Of a DNA stretch of 64,000 nucleotides, positions 28,449 to 41,212 are shown one piece after another. A program made the translations under genes and the position numbers. The DNA comes from Scytonematopsis contorta HA4267-MV1 (GTDB lineage Bacteria > Cyanobacteriota > Cyanobacteriia > Cyanobacteriales > Nostocaceae), in contig JAHHIC010000057.1 of assembly GCA_019359035.1 (NCBI GenBank), forward strand, positions 1 through 64,000. Reading direction: 5' to 3'. The notes beneath the pieces are model-generated. The model made no database searches. It saw only the letters and a list, made by a program, of their open reading frames with translations, and was not told the origin of the DNA. Numbering within the stretch: the stretch's first letter is position 1; each line of letters opens with the position of its first letter.

Positions 28449-30941
28449 CTACTGACTCGCTTGTTGTTGACTGCTTTTTCGGTTTAACAGGGATTTCCAA
28501 TCCCCAATTGCTTTTTCTGTCCACAGCCAATCTTGTTTCAATTGATTTACCTGGAAATTTTCAGGAGCCTCTTTAACCACCTTTTGACGGAATTTAATTG
28601 CCTCACTCAAATACCTGTCCCGTTTGCTGGCTTCAAATTGGTCATCAACAGACTTATACAACCCTAAGGCTAACCCTGCGTATGCTGTTAAAGTATCCTT
28701 TTGGGAAGTTCTTTGTTCTACAGCTAATTTCAAACCTCTAAACCAAGCATCATTAGCTCGTAAAAGATTACCTTCTGCGTAGAAAGCAAATCCCAAAGCA
28801 TTTTTATACAACACTGAGTCAGGCTTTCTTTTTGCTGCAGCTTCCCACAAAAGACGTGCATCATCAAAGTTATATTTTTTATCTCCTGTTTGAATCAACT
28901 GCCAAATCAATCGACCTTTATAAAAGTTAACTGCTGGGTCTTCCAATTGTGCAGCAGGAATCAAATCCAAGATAGCTTGAGCTTTGGGGAGTTCACTACG
29001 GTCAAGTAGTTCTTCCACAGCCATCAATCCTGCATTTAAGTCTCCCTGATTGATTTTGTCGGTAGCAAACGTGATTAGCATACCTGTTGAAGCTGTTTTT
29101 ATATCCTTGGTATTAAAGCTTTGCCTAGCCCCTGGTTTTGGCTGTGCTTGAGTTTCTGTTCTTGTAGAAATTGGTAGCGCTTCTGGCTGCTGTGGTCTTT
29201 GACTTAGACCCCACATACTTACACCAACAACAAATGCAAGAGCGCTTGCTCCCATAACACCAACAATTGCTCTGGGTTTGTGCTTACGCTTTGTTGTTGT
29301 GTTCGCTGATGTGTTTGTGATGCCACCATCAATAGCATTTAAGCTTAGTAAAGACGAGTCTTGGCTATCATCCCAATTATCCCAACTAGCAGTTTGGCTG
29401 GTAACGGAGGCTATTTCCCCAGATATTTTACTGCTAAATTGGCTACTGCTAGATTGGCTAGTTTCTGTCGATGGAATTGACTCTGAACTATCGCTATAAG
29501 ATAACTCAGTATTTGAAGAATGCTGGTCTAACTGATTAAACAGTTCCGAAACGATGGCAGAGTCTTCTTCATAGCTTGAGTCCCCTGTATAAACATCTCC
29601 AATAAAATCATCCCACGTATCATCCCCAAGCCAGTCGAGGTCTGAGGAGTCCCTGAGTGCGGAGCCTGTTATATCCTCAATGGGTAAAGGCATATCGCTA
29701 TTGGTTAGCGATTGAGAATAAATATTATCTGTTGTTTGTAAAGGAACTGTTACATCACCTAGTAACTCCGTAATTTGAGGAAAAGGCATTTCGGGACACA
29801 GGTAACCATTAAAGTCTGACTGTAGATATAAAATTGGCAATGCCCAAAACATTTCATGAGCGCTATAAGCTGTGATTAAACCTTGACGAACGCGACTGAC
29901 GCACAAATCTAAGGCGTAACCTTGAGATAAATTGCGATAAAACAATTGTGTCAGGGTAACAGCAACATCATCAGGAATGCGTTCGGACATTGCTAAAACG
30001 CTTTTTATACCACGTTTTACAAGGGTTTCAGTTAGATTACTTTCCCCTGTTTCCAAATTGTCCAAAGTTGCCCCTGCTCCCAAACAGGAGTTGAAAACAG
30101 CCATTTGGATGTTATTGTTAACAAGCAAGCCAGCCAAATCGTCGCCAGTTAAAGCTTCTGTTAAACCAGTTCGATTATTAACAAGGTAAATTGCACCACC
30201 ATTTGCCCCCACGTCACTATGACCAGAGTAGTGTAAAATATGGTACTTCCCTTGCTCTAGAGCTTGTGTTAACTCTTCCCTTCCTGGTTGTTCCAAAACA
30301 GTTAACTCAATTTCTGGCAAATAATTACCATTTTCATTAATTCTAGGTGTTTGTCGATGGTGCAATTCTGCTCTTAGTTTGACAGCCTCTTGGTTAAGCA
30401 AATCGAGACGTACCAAATCAGTAGGTGAAGCAATCACCATCAATACTCTAATCGCACCATCGTCTGGTAGCATGGGGACATTTGCTGTACCCCAACGAGA
30501 AGTATTACCAATACGACTTTGATAACGAGAAAAAGAAATATAAGGACCAGTGGCAATGGGACGACGCGAATCGTGCATCACTTCCCAAGGCAAACGTGCT
30601 AGTCTGTTGTCCTTTAAGCCCAAACGCAAACGCAGTACCTGTTGGTGGTTCTGAGCGATACTTTGCGCTGCTATCCAACTATCCCTGAGAGTGCCTTGAA
30701 ACAGTGCATTGTAGAGTTGCTGACCCAAAGTTACTAAGTTTACAGAGTTATGTGTAATTTCGCTCTGAAAAACGGATGTTAAAGGGTCATTCATTAAATG
30801 TCCAGCAGCTGTCAACCATTCAGCTACAGGCCAAGTTACTAGTTCTTCTGCCAATGGCACCCCAGGTGCGACTTCTTCCGTCCGCACCAAGTAGTCGTTT
30901 TGCCCTACTGGGGTTACGGAAATATGAAATTCCTGGGTCAC
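28449..30941 (-). CDS. hetF: HetF-type CHAT protein, heterocyst differentiation
   Basis: An 830-residue protein. N-terminal CHAT (caspase-like) protease domain with the dyad His241 (HYSGHSD) and Cys286 (VFNSCLGAG). Then a long acidic, Ser-rich linker (about 420-540), one membrane segment (about 557-577, IVGVMGASALAFVVGVSMW) and C-terminal TPR-like helices. HetF is needed for heterocyst differentiation and cell division control in Anabaena, affecting HetR turnover and PatU3. Identification rests on this architecture plus the NsiR1 array directly upstream, the known neighbourhood of hetF. It starts with GTG at 30941, with AGGA 7 nt upstream. The first NsiR1 copy lies 700 bp upstream on the opposite strand, so a long hetF leader would be antisense to it. 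Confidence 0.87.
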   Translation of the reverse strand: MTQEFHISVTPVGQNDYLVRTEEVAPGVPLAEELVTWPVAEWLTAAGHLMNDPLTSVFQSEITHNSVNLVTLGQQLYNALFQGTLRDSWIAAQSIAQNHQQVLRLRLGLKDNRLARLPWEVMHDSRRPIATGPYISFSRYQSRIGNTSRWGTANVPMLPDDGAIRVLMVIASPTDLVRLDLLNQEAVKLRAELHHRQTPRINENGNYLPEIELTVLEQPGREELTQALEQGKYHILHYSGHSDVGANGGAIYLVNNRTGLTEALTGDDLAGLLVNNNIQMAVFNSCLGAGATLDNLETGESNLTETLVKRGIKSVLAMSERIPDDVAVTLTQLFYRNLSQGYALDLCVSRVRQGLITAYSAHEMFWALPILYLQSDFNGYLCPEMPFPQITELLGDVTVPLQTTDNIYSQSLTNSDMPLPIEDITGSALRDSSDLDWLGDDTWDDFIGDVYTGDSSYEEDSAIVSELFNQLDQHSSNTELSYSDSSESIPSTETSQSSSSQFSSKISGEIASVTSQTASWDNWDDSQDSSLLSLNAIDGGITNTSANTTTKRKHKPRAIVGVMGASALAFVVGVSMWGLSQRPQQPEALPISTRTETQAQPKPGARQSFNTKDIKTASTGMLITFATDKINQGDLNAGLMAVEELLDRSELPKAQAILDLIPAAQLEDPAVNFYKGRLIWQLIQTGDKKYNFDDARLLWEAAAKRKPDSVLYKNALGFAFYAEGNLLRANDAWFRGLKLAVEQRTSQKDTLTAYAGLALGLYKSVDDQFEASKRDRYLSEAIKFRQKVVKEAPENFQVNQLKQDWLWTEKAIGDWKSLLNRKSSQQQASQ

Positions 30942-31604
30942 AACGTTTCCTGTTTGCCTCCTAAATTGGGTTTGAAACTAGACAGTTTCTCGTAGATGCA
31001 CTGACTTATTGTTACTAGATGCATCCTGATACACACATGTTTCTGATTTGAGTTGTTTTGCTCATATTGCTTAACTTTTACAACTTTATCCGGATAATAT
31101 TGCAGTTACACAGAACACTAGCTGGTAAATACACCTTAAATTTTCACTTCCCCTCCACTGGTGGTTTTACTCCAATGGGGGTTTTTCCAATAGTTGGAAC
31201 ACAATAATCCCCGTTCTAGCAAATTTCTTCTAAATATGGTGTTCGGTTTTGTGAAAGTTTCAACATATTGATTTACCTGTCATCCATATTAACTGTAGTA
31301 ACTCGTGCAACATTTCGTTAGACAATACGAACATTTTTATAGAAATTTCACGTAGACTGTTTAGACCACAATGCATGGCTTGTTGACAACCTCCGAGATA
31401 ACATCTGTATAAATAGATTGTATTCTTTTGTATGAGTTCCTTTTAACTTTTCAGTTACTTTGTACAATAAGTCTGTTCATCGTCATGTCAGCTACAATAC
31501 CTCAAGTCCTTGAATTATAAGGCTTTTTAATTTATGATTTTTAGATTTAATTTAAATAATTATTTGCTCAAAAACACCAATAATTCTCTTTTTTGGTAAA
31601 TTTA
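30942..31604. promoter_or_regulatory. Upstream region of hetF
   Basis: About 660 bp between hetF and the first NsiR1 box. A degenerate NsiR1-like 5' end (TAGATGCATCCTGATA) lies at 31016-31033. A hairpin CCCCTCCACTGG / CCAATGGGGG followed by T5 at 31150-31187 looks like a plus-strand terminator. The hetF promoter should be here or further upstream; no clear sigma-70 pair stands out. Confidence 0.5.
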
Positions 31605-31640
31605 TCCTGAACGTACTGGTTAGATTCAGAACATGTAATT

Positions 31641-31699
31641 GGTAGATGCACCCTGATAACTAATTTCCTAGTTGGAGAATTTCTTCAGCTAGGTTTTTT
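31641..31699 (+). ncRNA. nsiR1: NsiR1-like copy 1
   Basis: Nearest copy to hetF and 500 bp apart from the main block. TCCTGA box at 31605. Divergent hairpin CCTAG/CTAGG with T7. This copy could overlap a long hetF leader in antisense. Confidence 0.82.
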
Positions 31700-32160
31700 A
31701 TTTTCTTAATCTAGTTATGTGGAGAAAAAATAGTTAACAAATTCCTAGGGGAATAAGGCGACCTCGACCCAAATTTGTACCTTAAGAGCATCCAAAAAAT
31801 ATTGCCCTCCCAACGGTGACTCCCCCTCCCCGTTCAATACTTGGAAGGTTTTGCCGCAAAATACCTAAATACGTAGGTTGGGTTGAGGAACGTTCACCGA
31901 AGGTGGAGCGGAGCGCTTAACCCAACAAATACAACGTTTCGGTTGGGTTTCCGTCCCGTCCTCAACCCAACCTACAAAATCTCAAAACCTTCGCAGTATT
32001 GCCTCCCCGTTAACCTACCGTGTACGCGAGGAGGAGAGGGTTGGAGGTGAGGTTTCTTTGGCTGAGACGACCACCTAAATTGCGAATATCTGTTTATCAC
32101 GAGGACTTATACCCCTAATTCGCCAACAGTATGCTAGAAGTTTTGCAGTATTCAAGCCTA
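31700..32160. other. Insertion-like gap in the NsiR1 array
   Basis: About 460 bp separate copy 1 from copy 2. The gap contains the inverted-repeat element at 31873-31975 and other palindromic pieces (CCTCCCCGTTAAC, CCTCCCCGTTC). No gene or NsiR1 unit is seen. Confidence 0.6.
31873..31975. repeat. GTAGGTTGGGTTGAGG inverted-repeat element
   Basis: Arms GTAGGTTGGGTTGAGGA and TCCTCAACCCAACCTAC are complementary about 100 bp apart. An inner AACCCAAC/GTTGGGTT pair lies between them. MITE-like, common type in cyanobacteria. Confidence 0.85.
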
Positions 32161-32196
32161 TCCGGATTTGATGAGTAATGAATAGAACAATTAAGT

Positions 32197-32255
32197 GGTA
32201 GATGCACCCTGATAACTCATTCCCTTAGTTGGTTAAGACCTGCTAGGGGATTTTT
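32197..32255 (+). ncRNA. nsiR1: NsiR1-like copy 2
   Basis: TCCGGA box at 32161. CCCTTAG/CTAGGGG stem with T5. First of five nearly identical 142-144 bp units. Confidence 0.85.
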
Positions 32256-32338
32256 ATTTGATTTTTTTAATATTGGTATTGATTACACTCAGTCAAAATC
32301 TATCCGGATTTGATGAGTAATGAATAGAACAATTAAGT

Positions 32339-32397
32339 GGTAGATGCACCCTGATAACTCATTCCCTTAGTTGGTTAAGACCTGCTAGGGGATTTTT
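32339..32397 (+). ncRNA. nsiR1: NsiR1-like copy 3
   Basis: TCCGGA box at 32303. Identical to copy 2 as read by eye; period 142 bp. Confidence 0.85.
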
Positions 32398-32480
32398 ATT
32401 TGATTTTTTTAATATTGGTATTGATTACACTCAGTCAAAATCTATCCGGATTTGATGAGTAATGAATAGAACAATTAAGT

Positions 32481-32539
32481 GGTAGATGCACCCTGATAAC
32501 TCATTCCCTTAGTTGGTTAAGACCTGCTAGGGGATTTTT
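32481..32539 (+). ncRNA. nsiR1: NsiR1-like copy 4
   Basis: TCCGGA box at 32445. Identical to copies 2 and 3; period 142 bp. Confidence 0.85.
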
Positions 32540-32622
32540 ATTTGATTTTTTTAATATTGGTATTGATTACACTCAGTCAAAATCTATCCGGATTTGATGA
32601 GTAATGAATAGAACAATTAAGT

Positions 32623-32681
32623 GGTAGATGCACCCTGATAACTCATTCCCTTAGTTGGCTACGACCTGCTAGGGGATTTTT
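32623..32681 (+). ncRNA. nsiR1: NsiR1-like copy 5
   Basis: TCCGGA box at 32587. The loop differs slightly from copy 4 (GGCTACGACC instead of GGTTAAGACC). Confidence 0.85.
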
Positions 32682-32766
32682 ATTTGATTTATTTTTAATA
32701 TTGGTATTGATTACACTCAGTCAAAATCTATCCGGATTTGATGAGTAATGAATAGAACAATTAAGT

Positions 32767-32851
32767 GGTAGATGCACCCTGATAACTCATTCCCTTAGTT
32801 GGCTATGACCTGTGGTTACGACCTGTGGTTACGACCTGCTGGGGGATTTTT
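32767..32851 (+). ncRNA. nsiR1: NsiR1-like copy 6, expanded loop
   Basis: TCCGGA box at 32731. The terminator loop carries two extra 13-nt TGTGGTTACGACC units, making the RNA about 85 nt. The stem CCCTTAG/CTGGGGG is kept. Confidence 0.82.
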
Positions 32852-32934
32852 ATTTGATTTTTTTAATCTTGGTATTAATTACACTCAGTTGAAATCCATC
32901 CGGATTTGATGAGTGATTAATAGAACAATTAAGT

Positions 32935-32994
32935 GGTAGATGCACCCTGATAACTCATTCCCCTAGTTGGCTGCCACCCGCTAGGGGGTTTTTT
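32935..32994 (+). ncRNA. nsiR1: NsiR1-like copy 7, hybrid unit
   Basis: The upstream half is of the TCCGGA type (box at 32899) as in copies 2-6. The transcribed half is of the CCCCTAG/CTAGGGG type as in copies 8-11. It looks like a recombinant between the two subfamilies. Confidence 0.85.
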
Positions 32995-33061
32995 ATTTTT
33001 CGCAAATAACATTCGTACAAAATTATCCTGAAGAACCTGTTTCGGTAGCGAACATTAAATT

Positions 33062-33122
33062 GGTAGATGCACCCTGATAACTCATTCCCCTAGTTGGCTG
33101 CCACCCGCTAGGGGGTTTTTTT
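33062..33122 (+). ncRNA. nsiR1: NsiR1-like copy 8
   Basis: TCCTGA box at 33026. CCCCTAG/CTAGGGG stem with T7. Confidence 0.87.
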
Positions 33123-33189
33123 ATTTTTCACAAATAATATTCGTACAAAATTATCCTGAAGAACCTGTTTCGGTAGCGAACATTAAATT

Positions 33190-33250
33190 GGTAGATGCAC
33201 CCTGATAACTCATTCCCCTAGTTGGCTGCCACCCGCTAGGGGGTTTTTTT
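33190..33250 (+). ncRNA. nsiR1: NsiR1-like copy 9
   Basis: TCCTGA box at 33154. Near-identical to copy 8; period 128 bp. Confidence 0.87.
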
Positions 33251-33317
33251 ATTTTTCGCAAATAACATTCGCACAAAATTATCCTGAGGAATCTGTTTCG
33301 GTAGCGAACATTAAATT

Positions 33318-33377
33318 GGTAGATGCACCCTGATAACTCATTCCCCTAGTTGGCTGCCACCCGCTAGGGGGTTTTTT
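33318..33377 (+). ncRNA. nsiR1: NsiR1-like copy 10
   Basis: TCCTGA box at 33282. Near-identical to copy 9; period 128 bp. Confidence 0.87.
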
Positions 33378-33444
33378 ATTTTTCGCAAATAACATTCGCA
33401 CAAAATTATCCTGAGGAATCTGTTTCGGTAGCGAACATTAAATT

Positions 33445-33502
33445 GGTAGATGCACCCTGATAACTCATTCCCCTAGTTGGCTGCCACCCGCTAGGGGTTT
33501 TT
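33445..33502 (+). ncRNA. nsiR1: NsiR1-like copy 11
   Basis: TCCTGA box at 33409. Stem CCCCTAG/CTAGGGG with a shorter T5 run. Confidence 0.87.
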
Positions 33503-33586
33503 ATTTTTCACAGTGAAATGATGATTACAAACACTTTTCGCAGTAAATTATCTTGAAGACTTTATTTTACTGACGAACATAAAACT

Positions 33587-33642
33587 GGTAGATACACCCT
33601 GATAACTCATTCCCTAGTTGGCTACGAACTCTAGGGCTTTTT
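33587..33642 (+). ncRNA. nsiR1: NsiR1-like copy 12
   Basis: Box changed to TCTTGA at 33551. The 5' end reads GATACACCC instead of GATGCACCC. Stem CCCTAG/CTAGGG. Confidence 0.8.
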
Positions 33643-33725
33643 ATTGTAAACAATAAACAATAAAAAATAAAGCCTTTTACAAAAAATCATCCTGATGGTT
33701 GTGTTTTACAAGCGAACACTGAATT

Positions 33726-33786
33726 GGTAGATGCACCCTGATAACTCATTCCCTTAGTTGGCTAACGCCTGCTGGGGGATTTTTTT
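33726..33786 (+). ncRNA. nsiR1: NsiR1-like copy 13
   Basis: TCCTGA box at 33690. Stem CCCTTAG/CTGGGGG with wobble pairs, T7. Confidence 0.85.
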
Positions 33787-33901
33787 ATCCAAATCAAAAA
33801 ATAAACTACTTTTTATAAACGCTTTTTTACAAACAAAGTTAGCAAAAAAACTATTACAAAAATTATCCTGAAGGCGTTGTTTAACTCGCGAACATTAAAT
33901 T

Positions 33902-33960
33902 GGTAGATGCACCCTGATAACTCATCCTCTAGTTGGCTAACACCTGCTGGAGGATTTTTT
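33902..33960 (+). ncRNA. nsiR1: NsiR1-like copy 14
   Basis: TCCTGA box at 33866. Stem CCTCTAG/CTGGAGG: both arms changed together compared with CCCC/GGGG copies. This compensatory change supports the RNA hairpin. Confidence 0.87.
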
Positions 33961-34046
33961 ATTTATTCAAAAATAAACTGCTTTTTACAAATAAGGTTCG
34001 CAAAAAACTATCCTGAAGATTGTCTTTCGCTGGCGAAGATTAAATT

Positions 34047-34105
34047 GGTAGATGCACCCTGATAACTCATCCCCTAGTTGGCTGCCACCCGCTAGGGGGT
34101 TTTTT
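34047..34105 (+). ncRNA. nsiR1: NsiR1-like copy 15
   Basis: TCCTGA box at 34011. Stem CCCCTAG/CTAGGGG, T6. Confidence 0.85.
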
Positions 34106-34191
34106 ATTCCAAAAATAAACTGCTTTTTTACAAACAAAATTCGCTTTCCAAAACTATCCTGAGGATTGTCTTAACTAGCGAAGATTAAATT

Positions 34192-34247
34192 GGTAGATGC
34201 ACCCTGATAACTTATCCCTGGTTGGTTAAAACCTTCTAGGGCTTTTT
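34192..34247 (+). ncRNA. nsiR1: NsiR1-like copy 16
   Basis: TCCTGA box at 34157, only 35 nt upstream (one base deleted from the spacer). Stem CCCTGG/CTAGGG. Confidence 0.8.
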
Positions 34248-34330
34248 ATTGTAAACAATAAACCCGAAAAAATAAAGGGTTTTACAAAAAATCATCCTGA
34301 TGATTGTATTTAAATGGCGAAGATTAAATT

Positions 34331-34386
34331 GGTAGATGCACCCTGATAATTTATCCCTAGTTGGTTAAAACCTTCTAGGGCTTTTT
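34331..34386 (+). ncRNA. nsiR1: NsiR1-like copy 17
   Basis: TCCTGA box at 34295. Stem CCCTAG/CTAGGG, T5. Near-identical upstream region to copy 18. Confidence 0.83.
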
Positions 34387-34469
34387 ATTGTAAACAATAA
34401 ACCCAAAAAAATAAAGGGTTTTACAAAAAATCATCCTGATGATTGTATTTAAATGGCGAAGATTAAATT

Positions 34470-34536
34470 GGTAGATGCACCCTGATAACTTATCCCTAGC
34501 TAGTTAACTAATTGGTTAAACCTGCTAGGGTTTTTT
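34470..34536 (+). ncRNA. nsiR1: NsiR1-like copy 18
   Basis: TCCTGA box at 34434. The loop is longer, with CTAGTTAACTAATTGG. Stem CCCTAG/CTAGGG, T6. Confidence 0.83.
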
Positions 34537-34620
34537 ATTGTAAACAATAATCTGTTAATTGCCAATAATATTCGCTTAAAACTATCCTGATGATTATGCC
34601 GAACTCGCGAACACTATATT

Positions 34621-34687
34621 GGTAGATGCACCCTGATAACTTATCCCTAGCTAGTTAACTAATTGGTTAAACCTGCTAGGGGTTTTT
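34621..34687 (+). ncRNA. nsiR1: NsiR1-like copy 19
   Basis: TCCTGA box at 34585. Same long loop as copy 18. Stem CCCTAG/CTAGGG, T5. Confidence 0.83.
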
Positions 34688-34770
34688 ATTGTAAACAATA
34701 ATTTGTAGATTGCAAATAATATTCGCGAAAACTAATAAACAAATTGCTTTTAGCTCGCGAATATTAAATT

Positions 34771-34834
34771 GGTAGTCGTAGATGCACACTGATAACTCAT
34801 TCCCTTAGTTAGCCTTTACGCCACTAGGGATTTT
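34771..34834 (+). ncRNA. nsiR1: NsiR1-like copy 20, probably decayed
   Basis: No box at the -36 position (reads ATAAAC). The 5' end has a 6-nt duplication (GGTAGTCGTAGATGC) and CACACTG in place of CACCCTG. The T run is short. Probably silent. Confidence 0.6.
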
Positions 34835-35074
34835 CATTGTAAAGAGTCTTTGGATAAATTCATAGGGGGTGATACCCCTTGGACATTATTTTCTCAATTA
34901 TTCAAATATTTGCGGAAATATAATTAATTATTTTTCGGTTTTTAATTTCTATCATGATTTCGCCAAGATAAGCTGATTAAAAAGCACAAATTACAATTTA
35001 AACTGATTTGCTAAATGTTTTTGAGCAAACCAATTTGAAAAGAGCTAAAATTCAGTAATTTTCCCCAGAAATTA
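34835..35074. other. Gap between NsiR1 copies 20 and 21
   Basis: About 240 AT-rich bases without an NsiR1 unit or gene. A short hairpin AGGGGGTGATACCCCT lies at 34864-34879. Confidence 0.5.
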
Positions 35075-35110
35075 TCCTGAGGATTGTAAATAAACAAGGA
35101 ATATTAAATT

Positions 35111-35173
35111 GGTAGATGCACCCTGATAACTCATTTCCCTAGTTAACTATTAAAGCTAATTAGGGGTTTTTTT
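35111..35173 (+). ncRNA. nsiR1: NsiR1-like copy 21
   Basis: Last copy. TCCTGA box at 35075. Divergent but longer stem CCCTAGTTA/TAATTAGGG with T7. It ends 110 bp before the thioredoxin-like gene on the same strand. Confidence 0.82.
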
Positions 35174-35282
35174 ATTATGGGCTACTAAGAAGCCTGTAGC
35201 TTTTGGTGCAGTGCGACCAATATGCTAGGATTTAATACTATACATGAAAAAATCTTCTTAATCACACTTTTCTGGCAAATCT

Positions 35283-35606
35283 ATGGAATTAGCCGTAATC
35301 AAGTTCTCTAGCGAAGAATGTGGTATTTGCCACAAAATGTCCCACTATGACCAAAAAGTGTCAGAAGAACTGGGATTACGATTTATTAGCGTCAAAATGC
35401 AGGATACTGCGACTTATCGCCAGTATCGTAAGATTTTACTAACTCAATATCCTGATAAATCTGAAATGGGATGGCCGACCTATATTATCTGCGACTCTCC
35501 TGAAGGGGAATTTAAAATTCTGGGAGAAGTCAAGGGGGGACATCCTAAAGGTGAATTTAGAACCCGTATGCAAGAAGTTCTGGATTCTGTAGGGAGTGGG
35601 GAGTAG
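35283..35606 (+). CDS. Thioredoxin-like protein
   Basis: A 107-residue thioredoxin-fold protein with an active-site-like CGIC (residues 13-16, FSSEECGICHKM) and a cis-Pro in MGWPTYIICDSPEG. It probably acts as a dithiol oxidoreductase in the cytoplasm. The last five residues (VGSGE) and the stop are encoded by the GGGAGTG heptamer array, so the C-terminus has been replaced by repeat sequence. It lies 110 bp downstream of the last NsiR1 terminator on the same strand, so NsiR1 read-through could reach it. Confidence 0.8.
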   Translation: MELAVIKFSSEECGICHKMSHYDQKVSEELGLRFISVKMQDTATYRQYRKILLTQYPDKSEMGWPTYIICDSPEGEFKILGEVKGGHPKGEFRTRMQEVLDSVGSGE

Positions 35607-35697: not shown

Positions 35698-35922
35698 TTA
35701 CATCACTTCAAAAGATTTTACTTCTAACACCGGACCAATCATGGCTGCCGTCATTATGTCTTGACGTACGTTCCCAGTGACTTTAGCTTTTTGTCCTACT
35801 TTCAGTAAATTTTTGTCAGCACCACGAAGAATTTCGTAAGTTGTGCCTTCGTCAGAGACCAAAGCCCAAGCTCCGGTTCCTATATCTTTTTTCTCGATAG
35901 TGCCTGTTATTGAAATGCTCAT
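35698..35922 (-). CDS. Small conserved protein, OB-like
   Basis: A 74-residue protein starting MSISITGTIEKKDIGTGAWAL, with a stretch KVGQKAKVTGNVRQDIMTAAM typical of small beta-barrel (OB-like) domains. The ATG at 35922 is chosen because the upstream frame reads only repeat-derived HYPLPITHY-like sequence. Related small proteins occur in other cyanobacteria as far as I recall; the function is unknown. Confidence 0.65.
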   Translation of the reverse strand: MSISITGTIEKKDIGTGAWALVSDEGTTYEILRGADKNLLKVGQKAKVTGNVRQDIMTAAMIGPVLEVKSFEVM

Positions 35923-35934
35923 GGTGGAGAATTG

Positions 35935-36311
35935 GTAATTGGGAATTGGGAATTGGTAATTGGTAATTGGGAATGGGTAATGGGTAATGGGTAATGGGTA
36001 ATGGGTGATGGGTAACGGGTAATGGGTAACGGGTAATGGGTAATAGGTAATGGGTAATAGGTAATGGGTAATAGGTGATGGGTAATGGGTGATGGGTAAT
36101 GGTAACGATTCCCAATTCCCAATTACCAATTACCAATTACCAATTACCAATTACCAATTCCCCATTCCCAATTCCCAATTCCCAATTCCCAATTCCCAAT
36201 TACCAATTCCCAATTACCAATTCCCAATTACCAATTACCAATTACCAATTACCAATTACCAATTACCAATTACCAATTACCAATTACCAATTACCAATTA
36301 CCAATTACCCA
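35935..36311. repeat. Two facing heptamer arrays (GGTAATT / AATTACC)
   Basis: From 35935 to 36098 the array reads GGTAATGG/GGTAATT. From 36110 to 36311 it reads the inverse, AATTACC and AATTCCC. Together they form a very long inverted repeat. The right array provides the TAA stop of the subtilase gene (GGGTAATTGG on the minus strand). Long open frames here are repeat artefacts. Confidence 0.92.
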
Positions 36312-38146
36312 TTTTTACTAACTGATAAACGAGCTAGTGCGAAGCAAAGGATGGCGTTTGCAAGGAGAAATAGACGGTCTAATCCTGCTGGTAATCCCCA
36401 AACTGTGGGGTCTGTTATTGCGCTTACTCCTAAGCAAGCTGCAACTCCTAAGGATGAACCAACTGCAAACCATTTCCAAACTGGGTGTCCCAATAACAAC
36501 GACATTAATACAAAGGGTATTAAGACGCTGGCAAATATGGGATTAAAGGCATCGGTTCCTTGTAAGGTGTTACCTAATTCAGGAAGCGAACTACCTAAAA
36601 GTCTTAAGGGCCATTGGGGTAGGTCAAAGATAAATATGGTCTTGAGGAAGAATAATCCAGAGCTTCCGGCAATTAAGCCGCTGAATAATGACCAACCCCA
36701 TTGAACAGGGAAGTATATCCGCAAGAACCAGGCTAGTAGGTAAGAACCGACTACCATTAGTATTTTAGGTATTAAGGCTACTGCTCCGCCATCTATCCAA
36801 AAGCCGGGATTTAAATATCCGTTATCTCTTAACCAACGGAAGAAGTCTTGGAACGTAATTTGTCCTTGTACAGCGAGTTTAACTGCGGCTTCGGCGTTCA
36901 GTTGTCCTGCACCATAGTAGTTTAAACCATCATCGTTGATAACTATTGCGGAGTTTTTCAGGACTTTCAAAATCTCATCTGGTTCTTTGACTCCAGAGGC
37001 TTTGATTAAAGCTGCAACTCCAGCAACGTGGGGTGATGCCATGCTTGTACCTTGGAAGCCAAGAAATGTTTCTTCACCTCGGTTATCTATGTCGATGGTT
37101 TCTTGCAGGATTTTACCTGCATCGCTACCACCAGGAGCGGAAATATCTACCCCAGCTCCAAAATTGGAATATGGTGCTTTTTCTGCGTCTGGACCATAAG
37201 CAGAAACACCCATTACATGGGGATAACGTGCGGGATAGGAGGCTGAACTTTCGTTTTCATTTCCAGCAGCAGCAATAATAACTACACCTTTTTGATAGGC
37301 ATAATCTATCGCGTCTTTCATCAAATGGCTTTCACCACCACCACCAAGGCTCATATTAATTACATCTGCACCGTTATCAGCAGCAAATTTTATGGCTTCA
37401 GCGATGTCAGCAATTGTACCACCACCATATTCATTAAGTACTTTTAAGGGCATCAAATTAGCTTCGTAAGCGACACCCACGACTCCGTAACCATTATTGG
37501 TGGATTGGGCTACTGTGCCAGCAACGTGAGTTCCATGTCCGTTATCATCGCTAGCGTCTTCTTTGTCGTTAACAAAGTCGTAGCCTTTGACAAACTTTGT
37601 CTCCACCAAATCGCGAACTTTAGAAATGCCTGTGTCAATTACCGCAACAGTTATGCCGCTACCTTTTGTTTGAGACCAAGCTCCTTCCACATTAATTTGC
37701 CGCATGTTCCACTGTTTGCTGTACAGTGGGTCATTAGGACCAATTAATTTAGGTTGAGCCTGTTGTTCCTCGTTTGGCTTCAAGAATTCCGCCAATCGTG
37801 CCGATTCTCCCGGTTTTGGTATCTTATAAATATAATTTGGCTCGATTATTTCGGTATCTTTGGCGAATTTAGACCATCTCAGCTTTTGCAGGAGCTGTTT
37901 ATCGCCCTTGATAATATAAACATTGTCCTTTGCGGAAAATTTATTGTCCAGTTTGGGAGTAACGTTATACTGCTTCGCTATTGCTTTCAGTTCTTTCTGT
38001 AGAGCATCAGCAGGAATAGTTTCCTTAAAATCCAGCAGAATCGTCTGGTATTCCCCACGAGCTGCTAGTCCTCCAAAATTGAGGAAGCCAATCAAAGCAG
38101 CCGTAACACTTACAAAAAACAAAGACAGAAATATAAGCTTTCTCAT
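36305..38146 (-). CDS. S8 family (subtilisin-like) serine protease with membrane tail
   Basis: A 613-residue subtilase. N-terminal signal/anchor (1-20), a propeptide-like region (about 30-130), then the catalytic domain with Asp171 (VAVIDTGIS), His204 (DNGHGTHVAG), oxyanion Asn296 (AAAGNEN) and Ser368 (GTSMASPHVAGVAALI). After about residue 440 there are about four to five hydrophobic segments (for example ALIPKILMVVGSYLLAWFL, LFSGLIAGSSGLFFL). So the protease is extracytoplasmic and fixed by a C-terminal membrane domain. The substrate is unknown. The last codons and the stop come from the adjacent heptamer array. Confidence 0.9.
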   Translation of the reverse strand: MRKLIFLSLFFVSVTAALIGFLNFGGLAARGEYQTILLDFKETIPADALQKELKAIAKQYNVTPKLDNKFSAKDNVYIIKGDKQLLQKLRWSKFAKDTEIIEPNYIYKIPKPGESARLAEFLKPNEEQQAQPKLIGPNDPLYSKQWNMRQINVEGAWSQTKGSGITVAVIDTGISKVRDLVETKFVKGYDFVNDKEDASDDNGHGTHVAGTVAQSTNNGYGVVGVAYEANLMPLKVLNEYGGGTIADIAEAIKFAADNGADVINMSLGGGGESHLMKDAIDYAYQKGVVIIAAAGNENESSASYPARYPHVMGVSAYGPDAEKAPYSNFGAGVDISAPGGSDAGKILQETIDIDNRGEETFLGFQGTSMASPHVAGVAALIKASGVKEPDEILKVLKNSAIVINDDGLNYYGAGQLNAEAAVKLAVQGQITFQDFFRWLRDNGYLNPGFWIDGGAVALIPKILMVVGSYLLAWFLRIYFPVQWGWSLFSGLIAGSSGLFFLKTIFIFDLPQWPLRLLGSSLPELGNTLQGTDAFNPIFASVLIPFVLMSLLLGHPVWKWFAVGSSLGVAACLGVSAITDPTVWGLPAGLDRLFLLANAILCFALARLSVSKNG

Positions 38147-40729: not shown

Positions 40730-41212
<483 letters not shown>

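Follow-up and report, generated by a model that had tools for sequence, protein, structure and literature searches.

What does a cyanobacterium do with more than twenty copies of one small RNA gene? In Anabaena, NsiR1 is a small RNA (sRNA) that depends on HetR and is made early in cells turning into heterocysts. The array of Anabaena PCC 7120 comprises 12 NsiR1 copies, and NsiR1 represses hetF as well as alr3234 in this organism (PMC9045159). The window of the present study, a stretch of 64,000 nucleotides from contig C57 of Scytonematopsis contorta (genome of 10.66 Mb in 109 contigs), carries a still longer array of such units next to hetF. We regard it as highly probable that this is a multi-copy NsiR1 locus that would act by dose on the 5′ untranslated region (UTR) of hetF, with a further, diverged copy serving as a cis antisense RNA and with a second array elsewhere in the genome providing a second HetR input.

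Anatomy and size of the NsiR1 array

The array is real and consists of 21 plus-strand units from 31641 to 35173, the number that an earlier, sequence-only reading had given. Covariance-model matching, the check proposed there, places 20 of the 21 units above the gathering score of 39 of the Rfam family RF02399 (NsiR1), with 45.7–69.6 bits, and leaves only unit 20 (34777) below it at 33.4 bits. The DIF1-type boxes and the position upstream of hetF had likewise been recognised correctly. Nineteen of the 21 units share the 19-nt 5′ end GGTAGATGCACCCTGATAA letter for letter; unit 12 (33587) has a single change and unit 20 begins with CGTAGATGCACACTGATAA. A box TCC[GT]GA is present at −36 in 18 of 21 units, and if the TCTTGA at −36 of unit 12 is counted, the box stands exactly 36 nt before GGTAG in 19 of 21 units, as had been claimed. 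Of the two remaining units, unit 16 has its box at −35 and unit 20 has no box. The exact TCCGGA form is restricted to units 2–7 and to a unit 0 that is described below. Altogether, 19 of the 51 plus-strand TCC[GT]GA words of the window fall within 31501–35200.

A 17-nt seed taken from the conserved 5′ end (≤1 mismatch) was counted 30 times in this genome, against no match for the reversed control, which excludes a chance origin of the copies. Each of the approximately 20 intact units looks like a gene of its own, with a start at GGTAG, the box at −36 relative to it, a near-invariant 5′ end and a terminator hairpin. A micropeptide encoded in the conserved end (ATGCACCCTGAT) was considered and rejected: continued reading leads to a stop in some units and to none before the terminator in others, and the would-be synonymous positions are invariant in 19 of 21 units (sequences inspected by eye).

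Most of the variation between units resides in the promoter and the terminator hairpin, and some of the stem changes are compensated. For units 1–21 the mean pairwise identity is 0.83 in the RNA body versus 0.69 in the preceding 60 bp. Identity between units declines with their distance (Spearman −0.54 for promoters, −0.27 for bodies), which fits growth of the array through local tandem duplication.

For comparison, 20 NsiR1-array loci from 19 other genomes were used, picked mostly for many hits and not at random; 16 of them contain hetF and together with the window make up 17 hetF-linked arrays. Ranked by seeds, the window array comes first with 21, followed by G102 with 18 and then by 14, 14, 13 and so on down to 6. 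The array had been called 'much enlarged'; this is correct against the 12 copies of PCC 7120 and against the 6–18 seeds of the other 16 hetF-linked arrays, and the proposed counting of copies in related genomes does put it first, but with 18 seeds in G102 it marks the upper end of a gradual range. It represents a known type of locus in enlarged form. All 217 genomes of the family contain one or more NsiR1 matches above the Rfam cut-off; among them, the whole-genome count of the 17-nt seed (≤1 mismatch, a second class of units included, see below) is highest here (30), followed by G095 (26, a genome with 38% contamination) and G060 (21, the next clean genome). A recount of copies, with up to 107 candidates scored per genome, in 37 genomes mostly chosen for high scores and not random, yielded 32 for this genome, 27 for G095 and 25 for G060.

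Part of an array without hetF in the stretch fetched was found in G002 and G003. These array parts adjoin genes that match the right flank of the window in size and order (106/107 aa, then a 616/613-aa subtilase), with 85% and 75% identity in G002, for which identity was checked, and we read this as a locus split by rearrangement. In G158 (L162) and G159 (L163), whose arrays comprise 11 and 9 seeds, hetF is missing from the 17–18 kb fetched, and the array of G158 adjoins a NACHT-domain gene.

Outside the arrays, three solo copies resembling NsiR1 exceed the Rfam cut-off in this genome, with TCCGGA or CCCGGA words upstream. The copy at C36:151769–151819 is located between LGT and a tetrapyrrole methylase gene, the copy at C29:192829–192880 overlaps the 5′ part of a NUDIX open reading frame on the opposite strand, and the copy at C39:59020–59069 adjoins a PD-(D/E)XK gene. 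A 14-nt seed (≤1 mismatch) gave 36 matches in the genome, four of which lie outside the listed units, namely in the hetF UTR and on C13, C66 and C94; no hairpin was seen at the C13 match.

The hetF 5′ region as a candidate site of action

hetF, the product of which matches NF045509 above the cut-off, is located on the minus strand and is therefore divergent to the plus-strand array. The sequence-only reading had found the array and had overlooked three elements: a further unit close to hetF, a stretch of the hetF UTR that is nearly complementary to the 5′ end of NsiR1, and the second array. The further unit, a diverged 22nd one that we refer to as unit 0, has a TCCGGA at 31089, a start GGTAAATACACC at 31124, a hairpin and a T run, and carries the promoter word TATCCGGA. 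It spans 183–246 nt upstream of hetF, its distance from the hetF start being 183 nt, and thereby falls within a UTR of the 256 nt known for PCC 7120 (the UTR of this strain may differ). In 8 of the 16 other hetF-linked loci the nearest seed (≤3 mismatches) lies 174–204 nt from the hetF start, and in G060, G062 and G066 a more divergent unit is found at about 195 nt; TATCCGGA is common to these 11 loci except G001. For PCC 7120 the hetF transcription start was placed at −256 with NsiR1.1 downstream of it (PMC8406250), and NsiR1.1 was described as the copy antisense to the hetF UTR (PMC9045159). Because of its position, the shared promoter word and the PCC 7120 layout, unit 0 is likely the positional counterpart of NsiR1.1 and is probably antisense to the hetF 5′UTR. 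Its decayed seed would be tolerable, since a cis antisense RNA that overlaps the UTR needs no conserved seed.

The conserved 5′ end of the remaining units has a near-complement in the hetF 5′UTR. Of the 17 hetF-linked loci, 14 have the word TAGATGCA on the array strand at a distance of 51–93 nt from the hetF start, 13 of them as TAGATGCATC. Within the 270-nt region it ranks among the 8-mers with the highest conservation (0.955), alongside the NsiR1.1 box and seed, in an alignment of 14 loci (G039, G019 and G014 left out). The pattern TAGATGCAT-N45-75-TATCCGGAT, which combines the UTR word with the NsiR1.1 box, was detected in 100 of 217 family genomes and in 26 of 56 genera, and not once in reversed form. 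Two such words, at 30992 and 31016, are present in the hetF UTR of this genome; the second, nearer one (30992 type) was not seen in the 16 other hetF-linked loci compared. For 15 units, duplexes of their initial 24 nt (6 different 24-mers) with the hetF 5′ region were predicted at −22.2 to −25.3 kcal/mol. In each case no more than 1 of 200 shuffles reached such an energy, the shuffles being mononucleotide shuffles of the target only, and 14 of the 15 units pair best at the 30992/31016 stretch. One second-array unit gave −23.9 kcal/mol, matched by 3 of 200 shuffles. All copies could thus act on hetF in trans via the UTR complement, and the shared complement suggests that many copies act by dose on a common site. 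Pairing at the UTR of this genome would fit the remark that identical NsiR1 copies of PCC 7120 also partly regulate hetF (PMC9045159).

Besides this shuffling control, several points weigh against such an action on hetF. Unit 12 pairs best at the cis site and not at the trans site. Three of the 17 loci (G204, G207 and G039) have lost the UTR word and G211 has an altered form, with G211, G204 and G207 all belonging to genus g53; in the distant hetF locus L045, TGCATC is missing from the 222 nt upstream of hetF. TAGATGCACCC is absent from both Leptolyngbya hetF loci, the only two hetF relatives found in the genome-contig search, which is a result against a universal hetF site. In previous work, hetF-gfp was little altered when the −10 box of nsiR1.1 was changed or removed (PMC8406250). 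Doubts also concern the hairpins. Both sides of the terminator stem are changed in 3 of 7 pairs and the covariation score was matched by 1 of 500 shuffles and by none of the slid versions. The stem had been derived from the very alignment that was scored, and three double-changed pairs are found in one slid version as well, so that evidence for the hairpins being kept is modest. When single units were folded against dinucleotide shuffles, unit 1 reached a z of −3.0, and the hairpins of units 0, 8 and 20 (3 of the 4 window units folded) were no better than the shuffles (z −1.0, −1.0 and −0.7); for one unit of the second array z was −2.8.

In its general layout the locus resembles that of PCC 7120, with tandem units of about 60 nt upstream of hetF on the opposite strand, a DIF1 box, a terminator hairpin and a nearest copy that probably lies over the hetF 5′UTR. 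Unlike in PCC 7120, there are 21–22 units here instead of 12, the copy nearest to hetF has a decayed seed, and the hetF UTR holds two seed words. The three solo copies and the second, HetR-type array of this genome stand outside the comparison with PCC 7120. Nodularia spumigena CCY9414 likewise has an NsiR1 array upstream of hetF, with 12 repeats, and no second class is mentioned in the available text of PMC3610870. RNA162 of Limnospira indica PCC 8005 is a 57-nt NsiR1-like RNA, a detected transcript in a strain with hetR-patS, but this strain forms no heterocysts (PMC8400943). The features of the locus are compiled in Table 1.

Table 1 Features of the NsiR1-hetF locus (positions in the window).
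Feature	Position	Strand	Basis
hetF coding region	28449..30941	-	NCBIfam NF045509 equivalog, 1235.6 bits, cut-off 1200; CHAT domain
GTAGATGCAC, plus-strand seed copy in putative hetF 5′UTR; complement in hetF mRNA	30992..31001	+	sequence; within best predicted duplex of 14/15 units tested
TAGATGCATCCTGATA, conserved hetF-UTR word, mRNA near-complement of NsiR1 5′ end, candidate trans site	31016..31031	+	conservation
DIF1-type box TCCGGA of unit 0, at -35	31089..31094	+	conserved TATCCGGA in relatives
Unit 0, diverged NsiR1 copy	31124..31187	+	17.3 bits (below cut-off); hairpin and T run, -15.6 kcal/mol, z -1.0
NsiR1 unit 1	31641..31700	+	RF02399, 45.7 bits; box at -36
Nested inverted repeats, insertion between units 1 and 2 resembling a miniature inverted-repeat transposable element (MITE)	31835..32001	+	35 nt identical to second-array spacer
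NsiR1 units 2-4, identical	32197..32540	+	63.6 bits each; 359-nt exact repeat, 142-bp period
NsiR1 unit 5	32623..32681	+	63.1 bits
NsiR1 unit 6, 85-nt RNA, hairpin extended by internal GGTTACGACCTGT-type repeat	32767..32852	+	53.5 bits; -25.3 kcal/mol
NsiR1 units 7-11	32935..33505	+	67.0-69.6 bits; 127-128 bp period
NsiR1 unit 12, one seed position changed, TCTTGA as box	33587..33645	+	46.9 bits
NsiR1 units 13-15	33726..34106	+	66.6-68.1 bits
NsiR1 units 16-19	34192..34690	+	51.5-61.7 bits
Unit 20, decayed: without box, altered seed	34777..34838	+	33.4 bits, below gathering score
HetR-type palindrome GGGGTGATACCCC (GGGG-TGATA-CCCC; GGGN5CCC) between units 20 and 21	34866..34878	+	candidate site from sequence; no seed at usual distance
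NsiR1 unit 21	35111..35173	+	54.6 bits
Conserved gene adjoining the array on the right, 107 aa, with CGIC motif and without Pfam match	35283..35606	+	counterpart in G002, 85% identity

Past the right-hand gene of the array, low-complexity reading frames with repeats of the ITNYPLP kind occupy both strands at 35698–36704, which suggests short DNA repeats. About 5.5 kb past the array, at 40736–41212, there is a reading frame for a putative P-II (glnB-like) protein.

A second array and the company of the seed with HetR

The second array comprises 8 tandem units on the minus strand of C55:6038–7288 (L009), between gatB and argJ. Its units start with GTAGATGCACCCTGATRA like NsiR1 and end in a different terminator (GGAGAG...CTCTC). 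In RF02399 all 8 score 31.0–34.7 bits and remain under the cut-off of 39, for which reason we do not file them as NsiR1 despite the same 5′ end; no other Rfam family came near its own cut-off for these units. A palindrome GGGG-N5-CCCC and a TATAMT word precede the units, and a GGGN5CCC core is found near −35 in 7 of 8, the first unit having a 6-nt gap. Genome-wide there are two occurrences of the strict form GRGGGGTNNNNCCCCTC, both in the second array, and its reversed control gave one match. A 35-nt part of the MITE-like insertion in the window is identical to the corresponding stretch in the spacer of this second array.

HetR requires GGGN5CCC (PMC4649674), and its site in the hetP promoter is GAGGGGTCTAACCCCTC (PMC4192349), the GGGN5CCC core and CTC flanks of which match GAGGGGTATTGCCCCTC of the second array (PMC4192349, PMC4649674). 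The hetP site serves a protein gene, whereas the second-array site would serve tandem sRNA genes. With a model built from these 8 units, matches at E≤1e-5 were obtained in 211 of the 217 genomes of the family, and the strict pattern GGGGN5CCC-N14-40-GTAGATGCACCC is present in 82 of 217 with no reversed match. Among the matches listed, the span from palindrome to seed is identical in 121 of 127, where 27 spans were allowed, and the palindrome centre lies 35 nt upstream of the G in GTAG. Neighbouring genes were compared for 21 loci from 18 genomes: gatB is found at most two genes upstream in 16 and argJ at most two genes downstream in 17, and no locus lacks both. A published sRNA of PCC 7120, 4547237r, of about 51 nt and present in 12 of 27 heterocystous genomes (PMC4734099), is unlikely to be the second-array RNA, since the second class occurs in 211 of 217 family genomes and no likeness to NsiR1 is noted in the available text of that article.

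The occurrence of the seed was followed in an order sample of 195 genomes, 12 from the own family and 183 from 32 other families, in which HetR was called by PF03574 at E≤1e-20. Going by GTDB taxonomy, these other families are not known to form heterocysts. HetR was found in 113 genomes and the seed with palindrome in 105 (reversed control 0). Both were present in 103, HetR only in 10, the palindrome only in 2 and neither in 80, i.e. seed and palindrome accompany 103 of 113 genomes with HetR versus 2 of 82 without. The two palindrome-only genomes, G224 and G353, belong to families f9 and f10, whose other sampled genomes have HetR. If the seed is counted as an exact 18-nt match or in the palindrome form, it is present in 112 of 113 genomes with HetR, the sole exception being G387 (7% contaminated), and in 14 of 82 without HetR, 12 of these lacking the palindrome. 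At the level of families, HetR is present in 18 of 33, exactly those 18 in which seed and palindrome occur, and the other 15 have neither; within f30, the single genome without HetR is also without seed and palindrome. Fisher tests give 1e-40 for genomes and 1e-9 for families, values that ignore relatedness and indicate scale only.

Both promoter classes recur in 20 loci of 7 other families, DIF1-type boxes in f5, f15, f32 and f33 and palindromes in f3, f15, f24 and f33. In f18 (4 loci) the second-class body is found without a palindrome, and 0 of 11 f18 genomes have HetR. Rfam NsiR1 matches above the cut-off were obtained in 6 of the 12 loci scanned of these 20 (15 matches). We also observed 10–17 exact seed copies in the f15 genomes G380, G368, G391 and G279, some of them in tandem arrays of either promoter class and some scattered.

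On balance, we lean slightly towards the view that NsiR1 is a branch of an older HetR-linked sRNA family. This family would be defined by an invariant 5′ end (GUAGAUGCACCCUGAURA) and two promoter forms, DIF1 via HetZ and a direct HetR palindrome near −35; it would nearly always accompany HetR in the order sample, would usually be absent or palindrome-free where HetR is missing, and would predate heterocysts. Repression of hetF and other mRNAs may then be an ancestral HetR output in filamentous cyanobacteria. Not everything agrees with this view. Of the 217 family genomes, 135 lack the strict palindrome; HetR occurs without it in 7 of 12 own-family genomes of the sample and in 3 of 10 in f5, and the site is degenerate in G211, G204, G157 and G137. 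G335 (f32) has DIF1-type boxes with the seed yet no HetR, which speaks against a strict HetR link of the DIF1 class. Related genomes, moreover, are not independent of each other. In previous work, distinct gel shifts were not obtained for newly predicted HetR sites (PMC4192349), and a GGGN5CCC site before hetR turned out to be dispensable (PMC7377430).

The seed family that tracks HetR is the new part of this contribution; its control by HetR and its targets we infer from sequence. A description of it was not found in the open literature searched, some key papers lying outside that search. The seed letters searched for were not found there either, nor was a gatB-argJ sRNA array in the titles and abstract openings found, and in PMC9679502, PMC12475003 and PMC4365693 NsiR1 is confined to the reference lists. 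PatX is likewise a short element that follows HetR beyond the heterocyst formers, but it differs in being a peptide gene under DIF1; Elhai and Khudyakov reportedly described it in 2018 as having a DIF1 promoter and as being coextensive with HetR.

Proposed mechanism and alternative explanations

In the mechanism that we propose, HetR would act through HetZ on the DIF1 promoters of the NsiR1 units, a need for HetZ that is extended here from other Anabaena DIF1 promoters. The copies would act mainly by dose, which is the simplest reading of the enlarged array. Their shared 5′ end would pair with the conserved near-complement in the hetF 5′UTR and lower HetF, and would probably also pair with a hetP-like mRNA, as in Anabaena, while unit 0 would be the probable cis antisense RNA, NsiR1.1. 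In the second class the GGGN5CCC palindrome near −35 would present a direct HetR input to the same seed. One seed would thus have two inputs, direct HetR for the second class and HetR-HetZ for NsiR1, and as outputs hetF and, in PCC 7120, alr3234.

An alternative to be reckoned with, though we think it unlikely, is that copy number is neutral and results from unequal crossing-over without a dose effect, or that identical units were miscounted in the assembly. The identical units 2–4 with their exact repeat of 359 nt and the drop of identity with unit distance would be expected in this case, but at least one NsiR1 over the cut-off in 217 of 217 family genomes and 6–21 seeds in the 17 hetF-linked loci argue against neutrality, and a miscount of identical units would shift the total by a few only. 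It is improbable, in our opinion, that the units are functionally diversified sRNAs with different targets and that the large array stores variants. NsiR1.1 and NsiR1.4 do differ in their action on alr3234 in Anabaena (PMC9045159), and fifteen distinct bodies could be aligned in the window array; the 5′ end is nevertheless exact in 19 of 21 units, the differences are mostly in promoter and hairpin with some stem changes compensated, and the first 24 nt of all 15 units tested pair with the hetF UTR at similar predicted energy. The 'multi-variant set' that the sequence-only reading had also considered is weak for the same reason of an exact 5′ end with variation mostly in promoter and terminator hairpin.

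Decidedly improbable is an explanation of the second class as a leader or attenuator of argJ instead of a trans-acting RNA. The element does lie on the argJ strand, with argJ at most two genes downstream in 17 of 21 loci, but each of the 8 tandem units here has its own −10 word and terminator, the distance from the first unit to argJ varies from 119 to 1387 nt, argJ is not found there in 4 of 21 loci, and in other families some genomes contain numerous dispersed copies of the seed. The array might also be a DNA decoy in which about 20 DIF1 boxes titrate HetZ or a partner and set a threshold, the RNAs being secondary. To this one could relate the 19 of 51 TCC[GT]GA words of the window that fall in the array region and a copy number that differs among genomes; we take it to be very unlikely, because the RNA bodies are more conserved among units than the promoters, a near-complement of the RNA is kept in the hetF UTR, and the published effects came from RNA driven by a foreign promoter (PMC9045159). 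That the array is a sponge or decoy RNA which soaks up another RNA or protein instead of repressing mRNAs, a suggestion of the sequence-only reading for which we found no support, is hardly credible: it has the high copy number in its favour and nothing else, and no partner to be soaked up was found in a search for complementary sRNAs that covered the seed itself.

Dose action of a multi-copy NsiR1 locus on hetF, our preferred explanation, makes this natural strain, with nearly twice the NsiR1 copies of the model strain, a good test of whether dose sets the time of commitment. Beyond heterocyst formers, the role of hetR and patX in species without heterocysts has been called a mystery (PMC11298460). 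This question becomes testable with a candidate HetR target that was found in 105 of 195 genomes and whose putative operator stands at a nearly constant position.

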